DNA of 47,228 nucleotides from Betaproteobacteria bacterium RIFCSPLOWO2_12_FULL_68_20 (lineage in GTDB: Bacteria; Pseudomonadota; Gammaproteobacteria; Burkholderiales; SG8-39): assembly GCA_001770655.1 (NCBI GenBank), contig MERQ01000077.1:1-47228 (forward strand), in the 5' to 3' direction. Below, one piece after another: positions 9,445 through 29,054 of the stretch (position 1 is its first letter; the number at the start of each line of letters is the position of its first letter). Both the position numbers and the translations under genes were made by a program. The notes below the pieces were generated by a model. It was not told the origin of the DNA. It was given only the letters and a program-made list of their open reading frames with translations, and made no database searches.

Positions 9445-10914
9445 ATGTCGGACTGGGACGTCATCGTCGTCGGAGGAGGCAACGCCGCACTGTGCGCGGC
9501 ACTCGCGGCGCGCGAGCGGCGCGAGCGCGTCTTGGTGCTCGAACGCGCGCCCGAGGACGAATCGGGCGGCAACTCGCGCTTCACCGCCGGCGGCATGCGC
9601 ATCGCCTACCGCGGCGTCGAGGATCTGCGGCGCCTGATGCCCGACCTCTCCGACGCCGAAGTCGCGCAGACCGATTTCGGCGCCTACACCGAAGAGCAGT
9701 TCCTCGACGACATGGCGCGCATCACGCAGTACCGCTGCGATCCCGACCTCACCGAGGTGCTGGTGAAGCGAAGCTTCGACACGGTGCTGTGGATGCGCTC
9801 CAAGGGCGTGCGCTTCGCGCCCATCTGGGGCCGCCAGGCGTTCAAGGTGGGCGGCAAGTTCAAGTTCTGGGGCGGCATGACGGTGGAGACGGTGGGCGGC
9901 GGCCCAGGGCTCGTTGATTCACTCACCGCGGCGGCGAAGAAAAACGGCGTCGAGATCTGGTACTCGGCGCGCGCCGGCTCGCTCCTCGCGGACGACGACG
10001 GGGTGCGGGGAGTGCGGGTCAGGCATCTCGGAAAAACGCTCGATCTGCAGTCGCAGTCCGTGGTGCTGGCGTGCGGGGGCTTCCAGGCGAACCCCGAATG
10101 GCGCACGCGCAATCTCGGGCCGGGCTGGGAGCTCGCCAAGGTGCGCGGCACGCGCTTCAACACCGGCGACGGCATCCGCATGGCGCTCGACATCGGAGCG
10201 GCGGCCGCCGGCAACTGGTCGGGCTGCCACGCGGTCGGCTGGGAGAGGAACGCGCCGGAGTTCGGCGACCTGGCGGTGGGCGACCAGTTCCAGAAGCACT
10301 CCTACCCGTTCGGCATCATGATCAATGCCGAGGGCAGGCGCTTCGTCGACGAGGGCGCGGATTTTCGCAACTACACCTACGCGAAATACGGCCGCGTCAT
10401 CCTCGCGCAGCCGGGGCAGTTCGCCTGGCAGCTGTTCGACGCCAAGGTGAAGCACCTGCTGCGCGACGAGTACAAGATCCGGCAGGTGACGAAGCGGGTG
10501 GCGGACTCGCTGGAGGAGCTGGTGCGCAAGCTGGACGATGTCGATCATGAAGCGGCGCTGGCCGAGATCCAGGCGTTCAACCGCGCGGTGCGCGCCGACA
10601 TTCCGTTCGACCCGAACGTGAAGGACGGCAGGAGGACCGAGGGACTTGCGATCCCGAAATCGAACTGGGCGAACGCGATCGACATGCCGCCGCTCGAAGC
10701 CTACGCGGTGACCTGCGGCATCACGTTCACGTTCGGCGGCTTGCGCATCAACACCGAAGCGCAGGTGATGTCTTCCGACGGCGAGCCCATCCCGGGCCTG
10801 TACGCGGCCGGGGAACTCGTCGGCGGGATCTTCTGGTTCAACTATCCGGGCGGCACGGGCCTCACCAACGGATCGGTGTTCGGGCGCATCGCCGGTGCGA
10901 GCGCTGCGCGATGA
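9445..10914 (+). CDS. tcuA: FAD-dependent tricarballylate dehydrogenase-like flavoprotein (TcuA family)
   Basis: A 489-residue flavoprotein of the fumarate reductase/succinate dehydrogenase type. The FAD dinucleotide motif VIVVGGGNAALCAALAA is at the N-terminus, with the ribose-binding Glu in VLVLERAP. GGNSRFTAGGMR and the C-terminal YAAGELVGGIFWFNYPGGTG with LTNGSVFGRIAG are typical of TcuA and related enzymes that oxidise tricarballylate to cis-aconitate. No TcuB or TcuC gene lies beside it, so the true substrate is uncertain; related 3-ketosteroid dehydrogenases share the fold. The stop overlaps the next start (ATGA), so it is coupled to a HemD-like gene. Confidence 0.82.
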   Translation: MSDWDVIVVGGGNAALCAALAARERRERVLVLERAPEDESGGNSRFTAGGMRIAYRGVEDLRRLMPDLSDAEVAQTDFGAYTEEQFLDDMARITQYRCDPDLTEVLVKRSFDTVLWMRSKGVRFAPIWGRQAFKVGGKFKFWGGMTVETVGGGPGLVDSLTAAAKKNGVEIWYSARAGSLLADDDGVRGVRVRHLGKTLDLQSQSVVLACGGFQANPEWRTRNLGPGWELAKVRGTRFNTGDGIRMALDIGAAAAGNWSGCHAVGWERNAPEFGDLAVGDQFQKHSYPFGIMINAEGRRFVDEGADFRNYTYAKYGRVILAQPGQFAWQLFDAKVKHLLRDEYKIRQVTKRVADSLEELVRKLDDVDHEAALAEIQAFNRAVRADIPFDPNVKDGRRTEGLAIPKSNWANAIDMPPLEAYAVTCGITFTFGGLRINTEAQVMSSDGEPIPGLYAAGELVGGIFWFNYPGGTGLTNGSVFGRIAGASAAR

Positions 10915-11717
10915 AAGGGAAGCGGGTCGCCATCCTCGAGAGCCGGCTCGGCGAGCAGCTGGCCGATCTCATCGCCAAGCGGGGCGGGGTCCCGATCCGG
11001 GCACCCGCGCTCGCGGAGATTCCCGATGTCGATCCGGCGCAGATTCGCGCCCTGGTCGATGAGCTCGGGGCGCGCCCGGCGAAGCTGGCGATTTTCCAGA
11101 CAGGCGTCGGTACGCGCGCGCTGTTCAAGGCGACCGACGCCCTGGGACTGACCGAATCGCTGCTGGGCCTGCTCGGGCGCATGAAGGTGCTCGCGCGCGG
11201 CCCCAAACCGACCGGCGCGCTGCGCGGGCGCAGCGTGCGCATCGACCTCTCGGCTGTCGATCCCTACACGACGCGCGAAGTGCTGCAGGCGATCGGCGGG
11301 ATGCCGCTGACCGACGAGAGGGTGCTGGTGCAGCGCTTCGGCGCGGCCAATGCGGAGCTCGAGCGAGCACTGGGCGCGCGCGGCGCGGAGGTGATCGAGG
11401 TACCGCTCTACCGCTGGTCGCTGCCCGAGGACACGGCGCCGCTCGCCGGGCTGGTCGAAGCGCTGGAACGCGGCAAGGTGGACGCCGTGGTGTTCACCAA
11501 TTCCGAGCAGCTGCGCAATCTGTTCGCGGTCGCGGAGCGCCTGGGCCGCGCCGATACGCTGCGCGCGGCGCTCAACCGCACGCTGGTCGCCTCGATCGGG
11601 CCGGTCGCTTCCGCGGCGCTGCGCGATGCGAAAGTCGAAGTGGGGCTCGAAGCGAGCCCGCCGAAGCTCGGCCCGCTGGTCGAAGCTCTCGACGCGGCAC
11701 TTTCCCCTCCTCGTTGA
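10911..11717 (+). CDS. Uroporphyrinogen-III synthase-like protein (HemD family)
   Basis: A 268-residue protein with the two-lobed HemD pattern: KGKRVAILESRLGEQLADLIAKRGG at the start, IFQTGVGTRALF mid first lobe, VVFTNSEQLRNLF in the second lobe, and VASIGPVASAALRDAKVEVGLEASPPKLGPL near the end. HemD closes hydroxymethylbilane to uroporphyrinogen III, but this divergent family is often encoded away from heme genes, as here, behind a flavoprotein with a 4-bp overlap. It may be a paralogue with another role. The stop codon lies in the loop of a strong hairpin. Confidence 0.75.
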   Translation: MKGKRVAILESRLGEQLADLIAKRGGVPIRAPALAEIPDVDPAQIRALVDELGARPAKLAIFQTGVGTRALFKATDALGLTESLLGLLGRMKVLARGPKPTGALRGRSVRIDLSAVDPYTTREVLQAIGGMPLTDERVLVQRFGAANAELERALGARGAEVIEVPLYRWSLPEDTAPLAGLVEALERGKVDAVVFTNSEQLRNLFAVAERLGRADTLRAALNRTLVASIGPVASAALRDAKVEVGLEASPPKLGPLVEALDAALSPPR

Positions 11718-12436: not shown

Positions 12437-13630
12437 ATGCCGAAGATCTCCGCTTCCGCCGCGCTTTCACGGTTCCGCGTCCTCGATCTCTCTCGCGTGC
12501 GCGCGGGCCCGAGCTGCGTGCGGCAGCTCGCCGACTTCGGCGCCGACGTGATCAAGATCGAGTCGCCGCCGGGCGTCGACCCGAACGAGAGCATGGGCGG
12601 GCCGCGCGACGGGCCGGACATGCAGAACCTGCACCGCAACAAGCGCTCGATGACGCTCAACCTCAAGCTTGCCGAGGCGCGCGAGGTGCTCGCGCGGCTG
12701 GTGAAGACCGCCGACGTGGTGGTCGAGAACTACCGCCCGGACGTGAAATTCCGGCTCGGCGTGGACTACGAATCGCTCGCCGGGATCAATCCGCGCATCA
12801 TCCTCGCCAGCGTGTCGGGATTCGGCCAGGACGGCCCCTACCGCGACCGCCCGGGCTTCGACCAGATCGCCCAGGGCATGAGCGGGATCATGTCGGTCAC
12901 GGGGATCCCGGGGCAGGGGCCGGTGCGGGTCGGGTGCGCGGTCGCCGACGTGGCGGCGGGCCTTTTCGCAGCGCTCGGCGTGCTCACCGCGCTGCTCGAG
13001 CGCGAGACCTCGGGGAGGGGCCAGTGGGTGCAATCCTCGCTCCTGCAATCGGGCATCGCGCTGCTCGACTTCCAGGCGGCCCGCTATCTCATGGCGGGCG
13101 AAGTGCCGCCGCAGGTCGGCAACGACCATCCGACCAGCATGCCGACCTCGGCCTACACGACCGCCGACGGCTACATCAACGTCGCGGCCTCGGGCGACGG
13201 CATGTGGCGGCGATTGTGCAAGGCGATCGCGCGCGAGGACCTGCTCGCGCGCGAGGAATTCTCGGATCAGCCGCGCCGCGCGGAAAACCGCGCGCACCTG
13301 AACGCCGAGCTCAATGCGGCGCTCGGGAAGCGCCCGAGCGCGCAATGGATCGACACCCTCAACCGCGCCGGCGTGCCGTGCGGCCCGATCTACAGGATGG
13401 ACGAGGTGTTCGCCGATGCGCAGGTCGGGCATGTCCGGGCGGCGGCCCCGGTCGAGCATCCGCGGCTGGGCAGCCTGCGCCTGGTCAACCAGGCGGTGAA
13501 GCTCTCGCGCACCCCGGCCGAGCTGGTCGCGCCGACGCCCGAGCTGGGGCAGCATACCGACGAAGTGCTCGCCGAGCTGGGCTATGCAGCGGCCGAGATC
13601 GGGCGATTCAGGAAGATCGGAGTGGTGTGA
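12437..13630 (+). CDS. CaiB/BaiF-type (class III) CoA transferase
   Basis: A 397-residue family III CoA transferase that moves CoA between acyl-CoA and a free acid through an aspartyl-CoA thioester. N-terminal RVLDLSRVRAGPSCVRQLADFGADVIKIE and NLHRNKRSMTLNLK are family hallmarks; the catalytic Asp is in RPGFDQIAQG (Asp142). A TATACT lies 20 bp before the ATG, but no good -35 partner was found. The stop overlaps the next start by one base (TGATG), and a crotonase and a Bug receptor follow, so the three form an operon for uptake and activation of an organic acid (inference). Confidence 0.93.
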   Translation: MPKISASAALSRFRVLDLSRVRAGPSCVRQLADFGADVIKIESPPGVDPNESMGGPRDGPDMQNLHRNKRSMTLNLKLAEAREVLARLVKTADVVVENYRPDVKFRLGVDYESLAGINPRIILASVSGFGQDGPYRDRPGFDQIAQGMSGIMSVTGIPGQGPVRVGCAVADVAAGLFAALGVLTALLERETSGRGQWVQSSLLQSGIALLDFQAARYLMAGEVPPQVGNDHPTSMPTSAYTTADGYINVAASGDGMWRRLCKAIAREDLLAREEFSDQPRRAENRAHLNAELNAALGKRPSAQWIDTLNRAGVPCGPIYRMDEVFADAQVGHVRAAAPVEHPRLGSLRLVNQAVKLSRTPAELVAPTPELGQHTDEVLAELGYAAAEIGRFRKIGVV

Positions 13631-14412
13631 TGGCAGAGCTGAAGACAAGGGTCGAGGGCGCGGTGGCGACGGTGCTCTTCTCCAACCCGCCCAGGCTGAA
13701 CGCGATGACCTACGACATGTGGCGCGCGCTGCCGCAGACGATCGCCGCGCTCGAGGCCGACCCGGCGCTGCGCGTGATCGTGCTCGCCGGCGACGGCGAC
13801 AGGGCCTTCGTCTCCGGCGCCGACATCTCGCAGTTCGAGAAGCTGCGCGGCACCGCCGAGGCGCAGCTCGAGTACAACGACGCAATCGAGGCCGCCTACA
13901 CGGCGCCGATGCGCTGCTCGAAGCCCGTGATCGCGCGCATCCGCGGCATCTGCATGGGCGGCGGCCTCGGGCTCGCCGCGGCCTGCGACCTGCGCATCTG
14001 CTCCGGGGACTCGGTGTTCCGCATGCCCGCGGCGCGGCTCGGGCTCGGCTACAGTGCGGCGGGGATCCGGCGCTTCATGAACGTGATCGGCGCGGCGAAC
14101 GCGATGGACATCTTCATGTCGGCGCGCAAGTTCGACGCCGCAGAAGCCCTGCGCATGGGGTTCGTCAGCCGCGTGGTGCAGGCGGATGCGCTCGAGCGCA
14201 CGGTCGCCGAATACTGTGCCATGGTGGCCGAGAACGCGCCGCTCACGGTGGCGGCGGCCAAGTTCGCCGTCCAGCAGTGGCTGAAGGATGCGCCCGAGCG
14301 CGAGCTGGAAAAGGCGAACGAGATGGTCGAAGCCTGCTTCGCGAGCGCCGACCTCAGGGAAGGCCGCGTCGCATTCATGGAGAAGCGCAAGCCCGTCTTC
14401 CAGGGGAGGTAA
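13630..14412 (+). CDS. Enoyl-CoA hydratase/isomerase (crotonase) family protein, atypical active site
   Basis: A 260-residue crotonase-fold protein. The oxyanion-hole segments SGADISQF (62-69) and GICMGGGLGLAAACDLRI (107-124) are present, so CoA thioesters should bind. The two glutamates used by true hydratases are absent: GGGCE-like is GGGLG (Gly114) and the FxxPE-like segment is FRMPA (Ala134). Hydration is therefore unlikely by the standard mechanism; decarboxylation, C-C bond cleavage, thioester hydrolysis or dehalogenation are chemistries known elsewhere in the superfamily. It is coupled to the upstream CoA transferase and followed three bases later by a Bug receptor. Confidence 0.9.
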   Translation: MAELKTRVEGAVATVLFSNPPRLNAMTYDMWRALPQTIAALEADPALRVIVLAGDGDRAFVSGADISQFEKLRGTAEAQLEYNDAIEAAYTAPMRCSKPVIARIRGICMGGGLGLAAACDLRICSGDSVFRMPAARLGLGYSAAGIRRFMNVIGAANAMDIFMSARKFDAAEALRMGFVSRVVQADALERTVAEYCAMVAENAPLTVAAAKFAVQQWLKDAPERELEKANEMVEACFASADLREGRVAFMEKRKPVFQGR

Positions 14413-14414
14413 GA

Positions 14415-15377
14415 ATGCTTCGTTTCCTCGTTGCCGCGATCGCAATTGCCTTTGCCGCAGTCGCTCACGCGCAAGGGACCTATCCCGGCAGGCCGATCAC
14501 GATGGTGGTCGGCTTCGCCCCGGGCGGCGGGACCGACACCGTCGCGCGCATCCTCGGCAAGAGCGTCGGCGAGAGCGTAGGCCAGCAGGTGGTGGTCGAG
14601 AACCGGGCGGGCGCGGGCGGCAACATCGCGGTCGACTACGTGGCCAAATCGGCGCCCGACGGCTACACCGTGGTGCTGGCGAACGTCGGCTCGCTCGCGG
14701 TCGCGCCGCACATCGTCGCCAAGCTTCCCTACGATCCACTGAAGGACCTGGCGCCGATCACGATGGCGGTGGTGTTCTCCAACGTGCTGGTGGTGGACGC
14801 GAAGCTCGGCATCAGGACGCTCGACGAGTTCGTCAAGCTCGCGAAGGACAAGCCCGGCGCCGTCACCTACGGCTCCTCGGGCATCGGCGGCGCCGGCCAT
14901 CTCGCCGGCGAGCTGCTGAAGTCCATGGCGGGAATCGACATCGTGCACGTCCCCTACAAGGGCGGCGGGCCGGCGATGCAGGGGCTGCTCGGCGGGCAGG
15001 TCGCGGCCATTTTCGCCACCCCGGTGTCCTCGATGGGGCAAAGGAAGGCCGGCAGGGTGACGACGGTCGCCACCACCGGCACGGCGCGCGACCCGATGCT
15101 GCCCGACGTGCCGACGATCGCGGAGTCGGGCTATCCGGGCTACGAGGCGCTCAACTGGTACGCGTACCTGGCGCCGGCGAAGACGCCGAAGGAGATCGTC
15201 GAGAGGCTGAACGCCGAGCTGGTGAAGGCGCTCGGCGCTTCGGAAGTGCGCGATCTGCTCGCGAAACAGGGCCTCGAGCCGAAGCCGAGCACGAGCGCCG
15301 CCCTGGCGAGCTACATCGAGCGCGAGTACGCGACCTGGGGTCGCGTGGTGAAAGAGGCGGGAATCAAGGCGCAGTAG
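14415..15377 (+). CDS. Bug-family (tripartite tricarboxylate) periplasmic solute receptor
   Basis: A 320-residue TctC/Bug protein. The signal peptide ends HAQG; then come YPGRPITMVVGFAPGGGTDTVAR, VVENRAGAGGNIAVDYVAKSAPDGYT, the YDPLKDLAPI segment, HVPYKGGGPAMQGLLGGQV and LPDVPTIAESG. These residues shape the carboxylate-binding cleft in the family. GGGGAGG overlapping the crotonase stop is the ribosome site. No TctA/TctB membrane genes are nearby, so it must use distant permeases or act as a sensor. Context suggests it binds the acid handled by the upstream CoA transferase and crotonase. One of three Bug genes in the window. Confidence 0.95.
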   Translation: MLRFLVAAIAIAFAAVAHAQGTYPGRPITMVVGFAPGGGTDTVARILGKSVGESVGQQVVVENRAGAGGNIAVDYVAKSAPDGYTVVLANVGSLAVAPHIVAKLPYDPLKDLAPITMAVVFSNVLVVDAKLGIRTLDEFVKLAKDKPGAVTYGSSGIGGAGHLAGELLKSMAGIDIVHVPYKGGGPAMQGLLGGQVAAIFATPVSSMGQRKAGRVTTVATTGTARDPMLPDVPTIAESGYPGYEALNWYAYLAPAKTPKEIVERLNAELVKALGASEVRDLLAKQGLEPKPSTSAALASYIEREYATWGRVVKEAGIKAQ

Positions 15378-21743: not shown

Positions 21744-22706
21744 ATGATCCGTGTTGTCATCCAGGCAATACTCGTCGCGCTGTTCGCGCTCCCGGCCGCC
21801 GCGCAGCAGTGGCCGGCGAAGCCGGTGAAATTCATCGTACCTTACCCGCCGGGCGGCACGGTCGACCCGCTGGCGCGGCTGCTCGGCGCCAAATTGCAGG
21901 CATCCCTCGGCCAGCCGTTCGTGGTCGAGAACCGGCCCGGAGCGGGCGGCGCGATCGGCACCGCGGCCGGCGCGAAGTCGCCGTCCGACGGCTACACCTT
22001 CGTGTTCGTGTTCGACGCGCACGCGGTGAATGGCGCGTTGCTTCCCAACGCCGGCTACGACCCGCTGAAGGATTTCGCGTCCGTCATGGTGGTCGGCACC
22101 GCGCCATACGCCATCGCCACCCTCGCGTCGAAGCCCTACAGCAACTTCGGCGACGTGCTGAAGGCGGCGAAGGCGAATCCCGGCGCGGTGAGCGTCGGCT
22201 CGATCGGCAACGGCACGCTTGCGCACCTGATCCTGGTCCTCGCGCAGCAGTCGGGCGGGTTCAAGATCAACCACATTCCGTTCAAGGGCGGCGGGCCGAT
22301 GACACAGGCGGTGCTCGGCGGACAGGTCGAGCTCGGCATCGGCAGTGCCGCGCTGCTTTCGCCCCAGGTGAAGGCGGGCAAGATGCGGGTGGTGGCAGTC
22401 ACCGGCAACAAGCGCTCGCCGTCGCTCCCCGACGCGGGGACGCTGGCGGAGCAGGGCATTGCCGGGGTCGCGGTGAACGCGTGGTGGGGCATCGTTGCGC
22501 CGGCGGGCACGCCCAAGCCGATCATCGACAGGTTCCATGCCGAGCTGACCAAGGCGCTGAATCTGCCCGACGTGAGGAAGGTGCTCAGCGAGGGCATCGG
22601 CATGGAGCTGCTGGTGAGCACGCCCGAGCAGATGGACAAGTTCGTCGCTGCCGAGGTCGCGCGCTGGTCGAAGGTGATCAAGGAAAACGGTATCCGCCCG
22701 GATTGA
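21744..22706 (+). CDS. Bug-family periplasmic solute receptor (second copy)
   Basis: A 320-residue TctC/Bug protein: signal peptide ending PAAAQQ, WPAKPVKFIVPYPPGGTVDPLARL, VVENRPGAGGAIGTAAGAKSPSDGYT, YDPLKDFASV, HIPFKGGGPMTQAVLGGQVELG. GAGGAGG precedes the ATG. The family binds carboxylates in the periplasm. It lacks local TctA/TctB partners. Neighbours are an SDR and a D-2-hydroxyacid dehydrogenase, suggesting a hydroxyacid ligand (inference). It is clearly divergent from the Bug proteins at 14415 and 28083, so not a recent duplicate. Confidence 0.95.
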   Translation: MIRVVIQAILVALFALPAAAQQWPAKPVKFIVPYPPGGTVDPLARLLGAKLQASLGQPFVVENRPGAGGAIGTAAGAKSPSDGYTFVFVFDAHAVNGALLPNAGYDPLKDFASVMVVGTAPYAIATLASKPYSNFGDVLKAAKANPGAVSVGSIGNGTLAHLILVLAQQSGGFKINHIPFKGGGPMTQAVLGGQVELGIGSAALLSPQVKAGKMRVVAVTGNKRSPSLPDAGTLAEQGIAGVAVNAWWGIVAPAGTPKPIIDRFHAELTKALNLPDVRKVLSEGIGMELLVSTPEQMDKFVAAEVARWSKVIKENGIRPD

Positions 22707-22707
22707 C

Positions 22708-23685
22708 GTGAAGCTGGCGATCCTCGACGACTACCAGCGCCTCGCGCTCGCCTCGGCCGACTGGGAACGGCTGCGCTCGCGCGGGGTCGAAATCAGCGTG
22801 TTTCACGAGGCGTTCGCCTCGCTCGACGAGGCGGCGGCGAAGCTCGCGCCGTTCGACATCGTGTGCCTGATGCGCGAGCGCACGGCGTTTCCGCGCGCGC
22901 TGATCGAACGGCTGCCGAAGCTCAAGCTCGTCACCCTCACCGGCGCGCGCGCCGCGAGCCTCGATTCGCAGGCGCTCGCCGAGCGGCGCATCCCGGTGTG
23001 CCACACGCGCGGCGGCCGTGGCGGCGCATCCACCGCGGAGCTCGCCTGGGGTCTGATCGTCGCCGCGGCGCGCGACATGGAGAAGGGGATGCGCGCGATG
23101 CGCGCCGGCCGCTGGCACGAGGGCGTGGGCGCGGGCACCGTGCTCGAGGGAAAGCGCCTCGGCATCGTCGGCCTGGGCGGTATCGGCGCGCGCGTCGCCT
23201 CGGTCGGAAAGGCCTTCGGCATGGACGTCGCCGCATGGAGCCAGAATCTGACGCGGGAAAAGGCGGCGGCGAACGGCGTCGAGTACCTCGACAAAGGCGA
23301 GCTGCTGGCTAACTCGGATGTCGTCACCATTCATCTCGTGCTTTCGGAGCGCACGCGCGGCCTGCTCGGTCGGTCGGAGCTCGCGACGATGAAGCCGACG
23401 GCGATCCTGGTGAACACCTCGCGCGGGTCGATCGTCGACGAGGCGGCGCTCGTCGCGGCGCTGAAAGCCGGCCGCCCGGGGCACGCCGCGCTCGACGTCT
23501 ATGAGCGCGAGCCGCTGCCGGCGGACCATTCTCTGCGCGCGCTCGAGAACGTGACGCTCACGCCGCACCTCGGCTACGTCAGCGCCGAGAACTACCGCCT
23601 GTTCTACGGCAGCACCGTGGACAACGTCGCCGCCTGGCTCGACGGCAAGCCGGCGAACGTCCTCAACCCCGAGGCCCTGGCATAG
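22708..23685 (+). CDS. D-2-hydroxyacid dehydrogenase, NAD-dependent
   Basis: A 325-residue enzyme starting at GTG 22708, one base after the preceding stop. It has the D-isomer hydroxyacid dehydrogenase layout: KLVTLTGARAASLD near the substrate loop, GIVGLGGIGARVASVGKAFG for NAD, and the catalytic Arg in NTSRGSIVDE, Glu in DVYEREPLP and His in LTPHLGY. Relatives act on phosphoglycerate, glycerate or glyoxylate. It is in one transcription unit with the SDR and Bug receptor and overlaps the carrier gene downstream. Confidence 0.93.
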   Translation: MKLAILDDYQRLALASADWERLRSRGVEISVFHEAFASLDEAAAKLAPFDIVCLMRERTAFPRALIERLPKLKLVTLTGARAASLDSQALAERRIPVCHTRGGRGGASTAELAWGLIVAAARDMEKGMRAMRAGRWHEGVGAGTVLEGKRLGIVGLGGIGARVASVGKAFGMDVAAWSQNLTREKAAANGVEYLDKGELLANSDVVTIHLVLSERTRGLLGRSELATMKPTAILVNTSRGSIVDEAALVAALKAGRPGHAALDVYEREPLPADHSLRALENVTLTPHLGYVSAENYRLFYGSTVDNVAAWLDGKPANVLNPEALA

Positions 23686-28082: not shown

Positions 28083-29054
28083 ATGATGCGAATAATCCTT
28101 GCCGCGCTGCTCGCCGCCGCCGCTCCGGTGGCGTCGGCGCAGGACGCTTACCCCACGAAGCCGGTCACGATGATCGTGCCGTTCCCGCCGGGCGGCGTGG
28201 CCGACATCGTCGGCCGGCCGCTCGCCGCGGTGATGGAGAAGTCGCTCAAGCAGCCGGTAGTGGTGTTGAACCGCACCGGCGCCGGCGGCGCGGTGGGGAT
28301 GAGCGCGGTCGCGAAATCCGCGCCCGACGGCTACACCATCCTGATGGGGCTCTCGTCGATCTCGGTGTTTCCGGTGTCGGACCGCATCAACGGCAAGACG
28401 CCCTCCTACGAGATGAAGGACTTCGCGCCGATCGCGCTCGTCACCGCGGATCCCACGGTGCTGGTGGTCAGAACCGACAGCCCCTGGCGCACCCTGGCCG
28501 AGTTCGTCGCGACGGCGAAGGCTCACCCGGACAAGATCAACTATTCCTCGGCGGGCATCTACAGCACGCTGCACGTGGCGATGGAGATCTTCGCCGACGC
28601 GGCGGGGATCAAGCTCTTCCACGTGCCTTACCAGGGCGGCGGGCCGGCGGTGACGGCGCTGCTCGGCGGGCAGGTGCATGCGCTCGCTTCGGGCCCCGCC
28701 GCGGCGATCGCGCAGATCAAGGGCGGCAAGATGCGCGCGCTCGCGAGCTGGGGCACCGAGCGGCTCAAGCTCCTGCCCGAGATTCCGACCTTCAAGGAGC
28801 TCGGCTACAACGCCGAGTTCTACATCTGGTCGGGCGTCTTCGTTCCCGCGGCGACGCCCGGGCCCGTGCAGCAGCGGCTGCGCGCGGCAGTCGGCCAGGC
28901 GGCGAATTCGGCCGAGTTCAAGGGCGCGATGGACAAGGTCTCCACGCCGGTGTCTTACCTCGACGCGTCCGAGTTCCGGAAGTACTGGGACCGCGACGCC
29001 GCGCGGCTCAAGGCGATCCTGGAAAAGCTCGGCAGGATCGAGGACAAGAAGTAG
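28083..29054 (+). CDS. Bug-family periplasmic solute receptor (third copy)
   Basis: A 323-residue TctC/Bug protein: signal peptide ending VASAQD, YPTKPVTMIVPFPPGGVADIVGR, VVLNRTGAGGAVGMSAVAKSAPDGYT, HVPYQGGGPAVTALLGGQVHAL, LPEIPTFKELG. GAGGAGG precedes the ATG, and a second ATG follows immediately. It stands alone between a divergent small secreted protein and a convergent transglutaminase-like gene, with no catabolic partner, so the ligand cannot be guessed beyond a carboxylate. Confidence 0.94.
   Translation: MMRIILAALLAAAAPVASAQDAYPTKPVTMIVPFPPGGVADIVGRPLAAVMEKSLKQPVVVLNRTGAGGAVGMSAVAKSAPDGYTILMGLSSISVFPVSDRINGKTPSYEMKDFAPIALVTADPTVLVVRTDSPWRTLAEFVATAKAHPDKINYSSAGIYSTLHVAMEIFADAAGIKLFHVPYQGGGPAVTALLGGQVHALASGPAAAIAQIKGGKMRALASWGTERLKLLPEIPTFKELGYNAEFYIWSGVFVPAATPGPVQQRLRAAVGQAANSAEFKGAMDKVSTPVSYLDASEFRKYWDRDAARLKAILEKLGRIEDKK

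Follow-up and report, generated by a model that had tools for sequence, protein, structure and literature searches.

Positions 1 to 47,228 of contig MERQ01000077.1, a stretch referred to below as the window, come from a draft genome (G000; 3.48 Mb in 109 contigs, 96.45% complete) and carry, head to tail on one strand, the genes of a class III coenzyme A (CoA) transferase, a protein of the crotonase superfamily and a Bug/TctC-type periplasmic solute receptor (Table 1). The ATG of the crotonase overlaps the TGA of the transferase (an ATGA overlap). In a first-pass annotation the three genes had been read as one operon encoding a specific acid-degrading route that runs through a non-hydratase crotonase reaction; the spacing and shared strand of the genes agree with an operon, and promoter or terminator patterns, searched for between positions 11600 and 16500, were not found.

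Table 1. Genes and key codons of the three-gene locus, in positions of the window.
Feature	Position	Strand	Basis
Class III (CaiB/BaiF type) CoA-transferase, 397 aa, Arg22 + GNxH subfamily	12437..13630	+	PF02515 (CoA_transf_3), 402 bits
Arg22 codon of CoA-transferase, at E. coli Frc Gln17 position	12500..12502	+	alignment
Asp171 codon of CoA-transferase, aligned with class III catalytic Asp (YfdE Asp173)	12947..12949	+	alignment
Crotonase, NF004781/PRK06127 subfamily, 260 aa, without both hydratase glutamates	13630..14412	+	PF00378 (ECH_1), 187 bits
Gly114 codon of crotonase, first hydratase glutamate column	13969..13971	+	alignment
Ala134 codon of crotonase, second hydratase glutamate column	14029..14031	+	alignment
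Tyr141 codon of crotonase, fixed in subfamily, aligns with E. coli ScpB Tyr	14050..14052	+	alignments
Bug/TctC-type periplasmic solute receptor, 320 aa	14415..15377	+	PF03401 (TctC), 250 bits (cut-off 27)

The second protein is a crotonase both by profile (PF00378, 187 bits against a cut-off of 27) and by predicted fold (Z 35.0 to 4k2n). In an alignment with six E. coli reference crotonases, Gly114 and Ala134 occupy the two columns in which CaiD, PaaF and FadJ each carry Glu; by their motif these columns are those of Glu144 and Glu164 in the rat hydratase and of Glu112 and Glu132 in AcuH. The two oxyanion-hole segments, FVSGADIS (with GAD) and CMGGGLG (with GGG), are intact in the alignment. 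The first-pass annotation had noted both the replaced glutamates and the preserved oxyanion hole, and had allowed that other acidic residues in the same positions would undo its argument; as far as sequence can tell, none takes their place, since the sole acidic residue in the pocket segments 106-122 and 128-146 is Asp120, which is also present in five of the six references. In AcuH, according to published mutagenesis, a Glu-to-Ala change at either glutamate abolishes hydration (PMC5651017). Because both glutamates are missing here and the pocket segments offer no replacement acid, plain hydration is unlikely, and the window crotonase likely does not have the active site of a hydratase; the two catalytic glutamates that define such an enzyme are simply absent.

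Loss of both glutamates is not exotic in itself, and we rejected it as a distinguishing mark, since PaaG, MenB and three other crotonases of the same genome (L005, L011, L014) share it. As for Tyr141, among the six E. coli references only ScpB has Tyr in this column, and ScpB too is without Glu at 134, where it has Pro; none of the 17 other crotonase matches read in the window's genome has it. The ScpB residue is, we presume, Tyr140, catalytic in methylmalonyl-CoA decarboxylase. In addition, Arg73, Cys108 and Arg122 are invariant and Ser67 is nearly so in two alignments (A1 and A3).

The window crotonase is a member of NF004781 (PRK06127), scoring 354 bits against a curated cut-off of 291. This model, run over 200 genomes of the host's order, returned 51 copies above the cut-off in 37 genomes. 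Residues were read in every one of these copies (the window's own, 42 and a further 8): Ala134, Tyr141 and an Arg or Lys at position 136 are found in 51 of 51 and Glu114 in none, and with Ala134 and Tyr141 so fixed the pattern is not due to chance. A wider set of 123 relatives joins the 42 copies to 81 from a species collection, some of whose records duplicate genomes of the 200 and which is biased because one of its two search patterns contains the PA-R-LGLGY motif; with this reservation, Ala134 is present in all 123 and Tyr141 in 122. Records titled Alpha-, Beta- and Gammaproteobacteria, Chloroflexi, Myxococcota and Acidimicrobiia also contain members, and many of these records are binned metagenomes. 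The nearest relative (L081) is 75% identical, and the closest named ones, at 57-59%, come from records titled Burkholderiales, Betaproteobacteria, Alcaligenaceae and Zeimonas. The name PRK06127 was not found in the literature searched, and NF004781/PRK06127 is an uncharacterised subfamily in which the double loss of Glu is fixed.

Copies scoring below the cut-off, read for residues in 20 of 52 cases, indicate how this pattern may have come about. Fifteen have Glu114 without Glu134 and without Tyr141, three have His114, Ala134 and Tyr141, and the last two have Ser/Gly/Leu and Leu/Val/Glu at 114/134/141, so that Ala134 and Tyr141 travel together (both in 3, neither in 17). In a tree whose midpoint root serves for drawing, the subfamily has these three His-Ala-Tyr copies as its sister group (96/90), and the Glu114 group lies outside. 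From these patterns and the tree it appears that Ala134 and Tyr141 were gained jointly, Glu114 having disappeared in the common ancestor or shortly afterwards. The genomes of the sister copies (L188, L191 and L194, in G141, G164 and G108) gave no match to the Arg22-type transferase described below. Within the clade itself, on a long branch, sits L193, from a genome of the same family (G103); this copy has lost both Ala134 and Tyr141, and that genome likewise has no Arg22-type transferase match.

An AlphaFold2 model of the crotonase built from 71 sequences has a mean predicted local distance difference test score (pLDDT) of 96.3. Its best solved structural matches are 4k2n and 4olq/5c9g (VIA Z 34-35, identity 31-35%), each described only with a family name or as putative. 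The printed alignment shows that 4olq (Hyphomonas neptunium, as is 5c9g) resembles the window crotonase in lacking both glutamates and in having Lys and Tyr at 136 and 141, and differs from it in having Pro at 134, whereas 4k2n (Magnetospirillum magneticum) has retained the glutamate at 114 and lacks a Tyr at 141. The 50 structural matches listed do not include methylmalonyl-CoA decarboxylase, an absence that we do not count against a decarboxylase.

The transferase belongs to class III by its PF02515 score (402 bits) and by its catalytic Asp, which is aligned and invariant; the closest solved chains are those of SUGCT (9br7/9br6). Arg22 and Asp171 are invariant in an alignment of 26 transferases, as are G228, N229 and H231 of the GNxH loop (here GNDH). 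The Frc residue aligned with Arg22, Gln17, presumably sits in the active site. We examined 59 transferases (more than 300 residues aligned) that adjoin subfamily crotonases on the same strand and found Arg at 22 in 53, the rest having Val (3), Leu (2) or being cut off (1), and the GNxH loop in 54. By comparison, a single one of the 11 class III transferases in the window's genome, the window's own, has Arg at this position. Against NF008511, the model of YfdE-type acetyl-CoA:oxalate CoA-transferases, the protein scores 223 bits, below the equivalog cut-off of 522, and it does have the GNxH loop.

The same 200 genomes were surveyed with a model of the Arg22-type transferases, the threshold lying in the gap between 519 and 423 bits. 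Such transferases are found in 36 genomes, 35 of which also hold the crotonase, and conversely 35 of the 37 crotonase genomes hold the transferase, leaving two with the crotonase only (G012, G060), one with the transferase only (G158) and 162 with neither (Fisher p 1.7e-35, relatedness ignored). The genes are neighbours, transferase first, in 22 of the 37 genomes (22 of 51 copies), and among the 123 relatives a class III transferase of any kind lies upstream of the crotonase in 56 and downstream in 4. It is the co-occurring transferase-crotonase pair that forms the conserved unit, nearly always kept in the same genome even when its members lie apart; it is not described in the titles or abstracts of the literature searched. 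Downstream of it no third enzyme recurred, the next genes being mixed, in a survey with a crude longest-open-reading-frame (ORF) caller that gives shadow ORFs in GC-rich DNA and left many next genes unresolved. Two ORFs near the pair resemble, by eye, the isocitrate lyase/phosphoenolpyruvate mutase family (L088:482-1357 and L089:5233-6129, both on the minus strand), the one in L089 lying 53 bases downstream of the crotonase. The window's genome has a second adjoining class III transferase-crotonase pair (G000:C92:21186-23092), in which both glutamates are kept and Arg is not found at 22.

The receptor is not tied to the pair in this way. An adjoining Bug gene on the same strand is present in 11 of the 123 relatives and a Bug gene anywhere within the fetched stretch in 53, and the order CoA-transferase, crotonase, Bug, which the first-pass annotation had proposed to look for elsewhere, recurs in three (L072, L092, L145), so that we rejected it as a conserved unit; no Bug match lies in the 11 kb of L081. 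What stands of the proposal that the trio defines a route is the coupling of the first two genes (35/37 and 35/36), and the case for the receptor as a defining part is weak. With 41 Bug and 5 TctA permease matches in the window's genome, Bug is probably a local uptake gene added to the conserved pair. Two further Bug/TctC genes lie in the window, at about 21873-22691 and at 28083-29054, the former preceding a D-2-hydroxyacid dehydrogenase gene at 22708-23685.

What reaction does the pair carry out? Our preferred reading, which we hold tentatively and short of probable, is that the pair activates a di-acid with CoA and then carries out a non-hydratase step, most likely decarboxylation of a malonate-type ester, in a closed CoA cycle. 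We infer the order of steps, the decarboxylation, the substrate and the roles of Arg22, Tyr141 and Bug as follows. The transferase would load a small di-acid with CoA taken from an acyl-CoA, and the YfdE-type GNxH loop makes acetyl-CoA a candidate donor. The second carboxylate may be held by Arg22, which is placed near the catalytic Asp171 by analogy with Gln17 of Frc; an Arg in this site fits such a group. The crotonase, with no glutamate pair for hydration, would bind the thioester in its oxyanion hole, the emptied and uncharged pocket tolerating the free carboxylate beside the thioester. CO2 would then depart to leave an enolate, and Tyr141 would position the carboxylate or give a proton, a role that we model, by assumption, on the Tyr of methylmalonyl-CoA decarboxylase. 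The acyl-CoA so formed could be the next CoA donor, closing the cycle without a third enzyme as in Frc/Oxc, and in the window's genome the Bug receptor would probably add uptake.

Several observations argue for this reading. Decarboxylation of a malonate-type thioester requires that the oxyanion hole accommodate the enolate and that the pocket not repel the leaving carboxylate; no acid-base pair is needed to activate water. The loss of both glutamates together with a fixed Tyr fits such a reaction. An active-site tyrosine of the ScpB type is there by alignment and by fixation in the subfamily. To this are added the fixation of Ala134, the co-occurrence of the two genes and the contrast between Arg22 in 53 of 59 adjoining transferases and in 1 of 11 class III transferases of the genome. 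The G103 copy, which has lost Ala134 and Tyr141 in a genome without the transferase, is counted on the same side.

A considerable list weighs against it. ScpB retains Glu114, carries Pro at 134 and, in the column where Ala64 prevails in the subfamily, His; it is 28% identical and sits on a long branch whose place in the tree is not trustworthy. With NF008506, the methylmalonyl-CoA decarboxylase model, the window crotonase scores 150 bits, short of the cut-off of 257, and eight other non-cognate hydratase/crotonase-family models outscore NF008506 on it. The two residue exceptions are L112, the single member with Asp at 114, and L104 (2626-3399, plus strand), with Tyr at 114 and Val at 141, in which the tyrosine seems relocated within the pocket. 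Of the crotonase copies 29 of 51 do not adjoin the transferase, some of them at contig ends. YfdE, our model for the GNxH loop, gave no product with succinate (PMC3720670). Finally, malonyl-CoA decarboxylase (MCD, PF05292) is found in 27 of the 37 crotonase genomes versus 20 of the 163 others; it was not found in the window's genome or in G059, home of the nearest copy. These counts do not support the module as a substitute for MCD, and since these genomes so often contain MCD already, a route for plain malonate would be redundant there, so that a substituted malonate or another di-acid is the more likely substrate.

Other chemistries have to be weighed against the decarboxylating cycle. The most serious, though rather unlikely in our estimate, is that the crotonase is a C-C or C-S lyase or a thioester hydrolase that acts on a larger di-acid CoA ester by retro-Claisen cleavage, beta-elimination or hydrolysis, with Tyr141 and other conserved residues being catalytic. 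The invariant Arg73, Cys108 and Arg122 and the near-invariant Ser67 would suit such an enzyme, and C-C cleavage, dehalogenation and thioester hydrolysis are all listed for crotonases in one paper (PMC2787491). In a possible parallel from Variovorax paradoxus, thiodipropionyl-CoA is proposed to be the product of a putative formyl-CoA transferase, and this compound stabilises Ech-20, whose activity is unmeasured (PMC6370202). The pocket segments, however, hold no conserved acid or His besides the common Asp120, and the genes after the pair showed no third enzyme that recurs, within the limits of the gene caller. Nothing turned up that links the crotonase to chlorinated acyl-CoAs, which the first-pass annotation had suggested as test substrates, and no search was aimed at them. 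An isomerase or racemase, by likeness to the Glu-less PaaG and dienoyl-CoA isomerases, appears improbable: PaaG, annotated as an isomerase, has Thr and Phe in the 114 and 134 columns, but it also has an Asp directly after the 141 column (LIPDCGG), which we take to be its catalytic acid, where the window crotonase has Ser and no acid anywhere in 128-146.

It is a little less probable still that the crotonase is a non-catalytic acyl-CoA binder or a subunit that stabilises the transferase. A possible precedent is EchA6 of M. tuberculosis, a crotonase regarded as a non-catalytic binder of acyl-CoA. One paper that names EchA6 counts it among studied hydratases (PMC5651017). Strict conservation of Tyr141, Ala134 and the oxyanion-hole segments across wide divergence favours catalysis over mere binding. 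Least credible of all is a plain enoyl-CoA hydratase that uses other residues; the NCBIfam name says so, and the best relatives of known structure carry the hydratase label, but the AcuH mutants are inactive with either Glu replaced, and here both are missing, with no acid taking their place in the pocket segments.

Taken together, the residue observation is confirmed, the idea of a non-hydratase crotonase is likely right, and the real unit is the co-occurring pair with a putative acid substrate. The first-pass proposal is partly upheld: the non-hydratase crotonase coupled to a CoA-transferase is supported by the AcuH mutagenesis and the tie to one transferase subfamily, and a route defined by Bug is weakly supported. 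That the pair represents a widespread module, a crotonase-based cycle decarboxylating malonate-type di-acids, separate from malonate decarboxylase (Mdc), MCD and Frc/Oxc, and that its crotonases make up another decarboxylase class next to ScpB, is a doubtful though live proposition.

The genes flanking the trio are both on the minus strand, the upstream one weakly DUF5666-like (20 bits, below the cut-off of 27) and the downstream one HbpS-like. Further upstream, at 9445-10914 on the plus strand, the window encodes a protein like the flavin adenine dinucleotide-dependent tricarballylate dehydrogenase TcuA (588 bits against a cut-off of 369), followed by a HemD-like gene at 10911-11717.

The subfamily is common, with copies over the cut-off in 37 of the 200 genomes, and goes with a single transferase subfamily; genome annotation names it enoyl-CoA hydratase although its active site should not hydrate. 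If a di-acid decarboxylating cycle is indeed at work, the present names lead pathway reconstructions to misplace the pair. The name of NF004781 (PRK06127), of which the window crotonase is a member, implies a hydration that the residues do not support. Among characterised systems, the carnitine cluster of E. coli likewise joins a CoA-transferase to a crotonase, and CaiB is a class III CoA-transferase, in agreement with the closest solved chains of the window transferase; CaiD, unlike the window crotonase, keeps both glutamates and has Pro at 141. ScpB (YgfG) shares the Tyr at 141 and the absence of Glu at 134, and its operon too contains a CoA-transferase gene, scpC, but ScpC is a CoA-transferase of another type, and ScpB differs further in the Glu, the His and the identity given above and in a shorter loop after the oxyanion hole. 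The oxalate system Frc/Oxc offers an analogy to the cycle proposed, in that a class III transferase supplies a decarboxylase, the product of which serves again as a CoA donor; Oxc, however, is thiamin-dependent and not a crotonase, and Frc has Gln17 and a glycine-rich loop. The window transferase is 31-32% identical to Frc and YfdE and resembles YfdE in its GNxH loop, which in YfdE stands where Frc has its oxalate-binding glycine-rich loop and has been proposed to determine specificity in an enzyme that uses acetyl-CoA and oxalate (PMC3720670).

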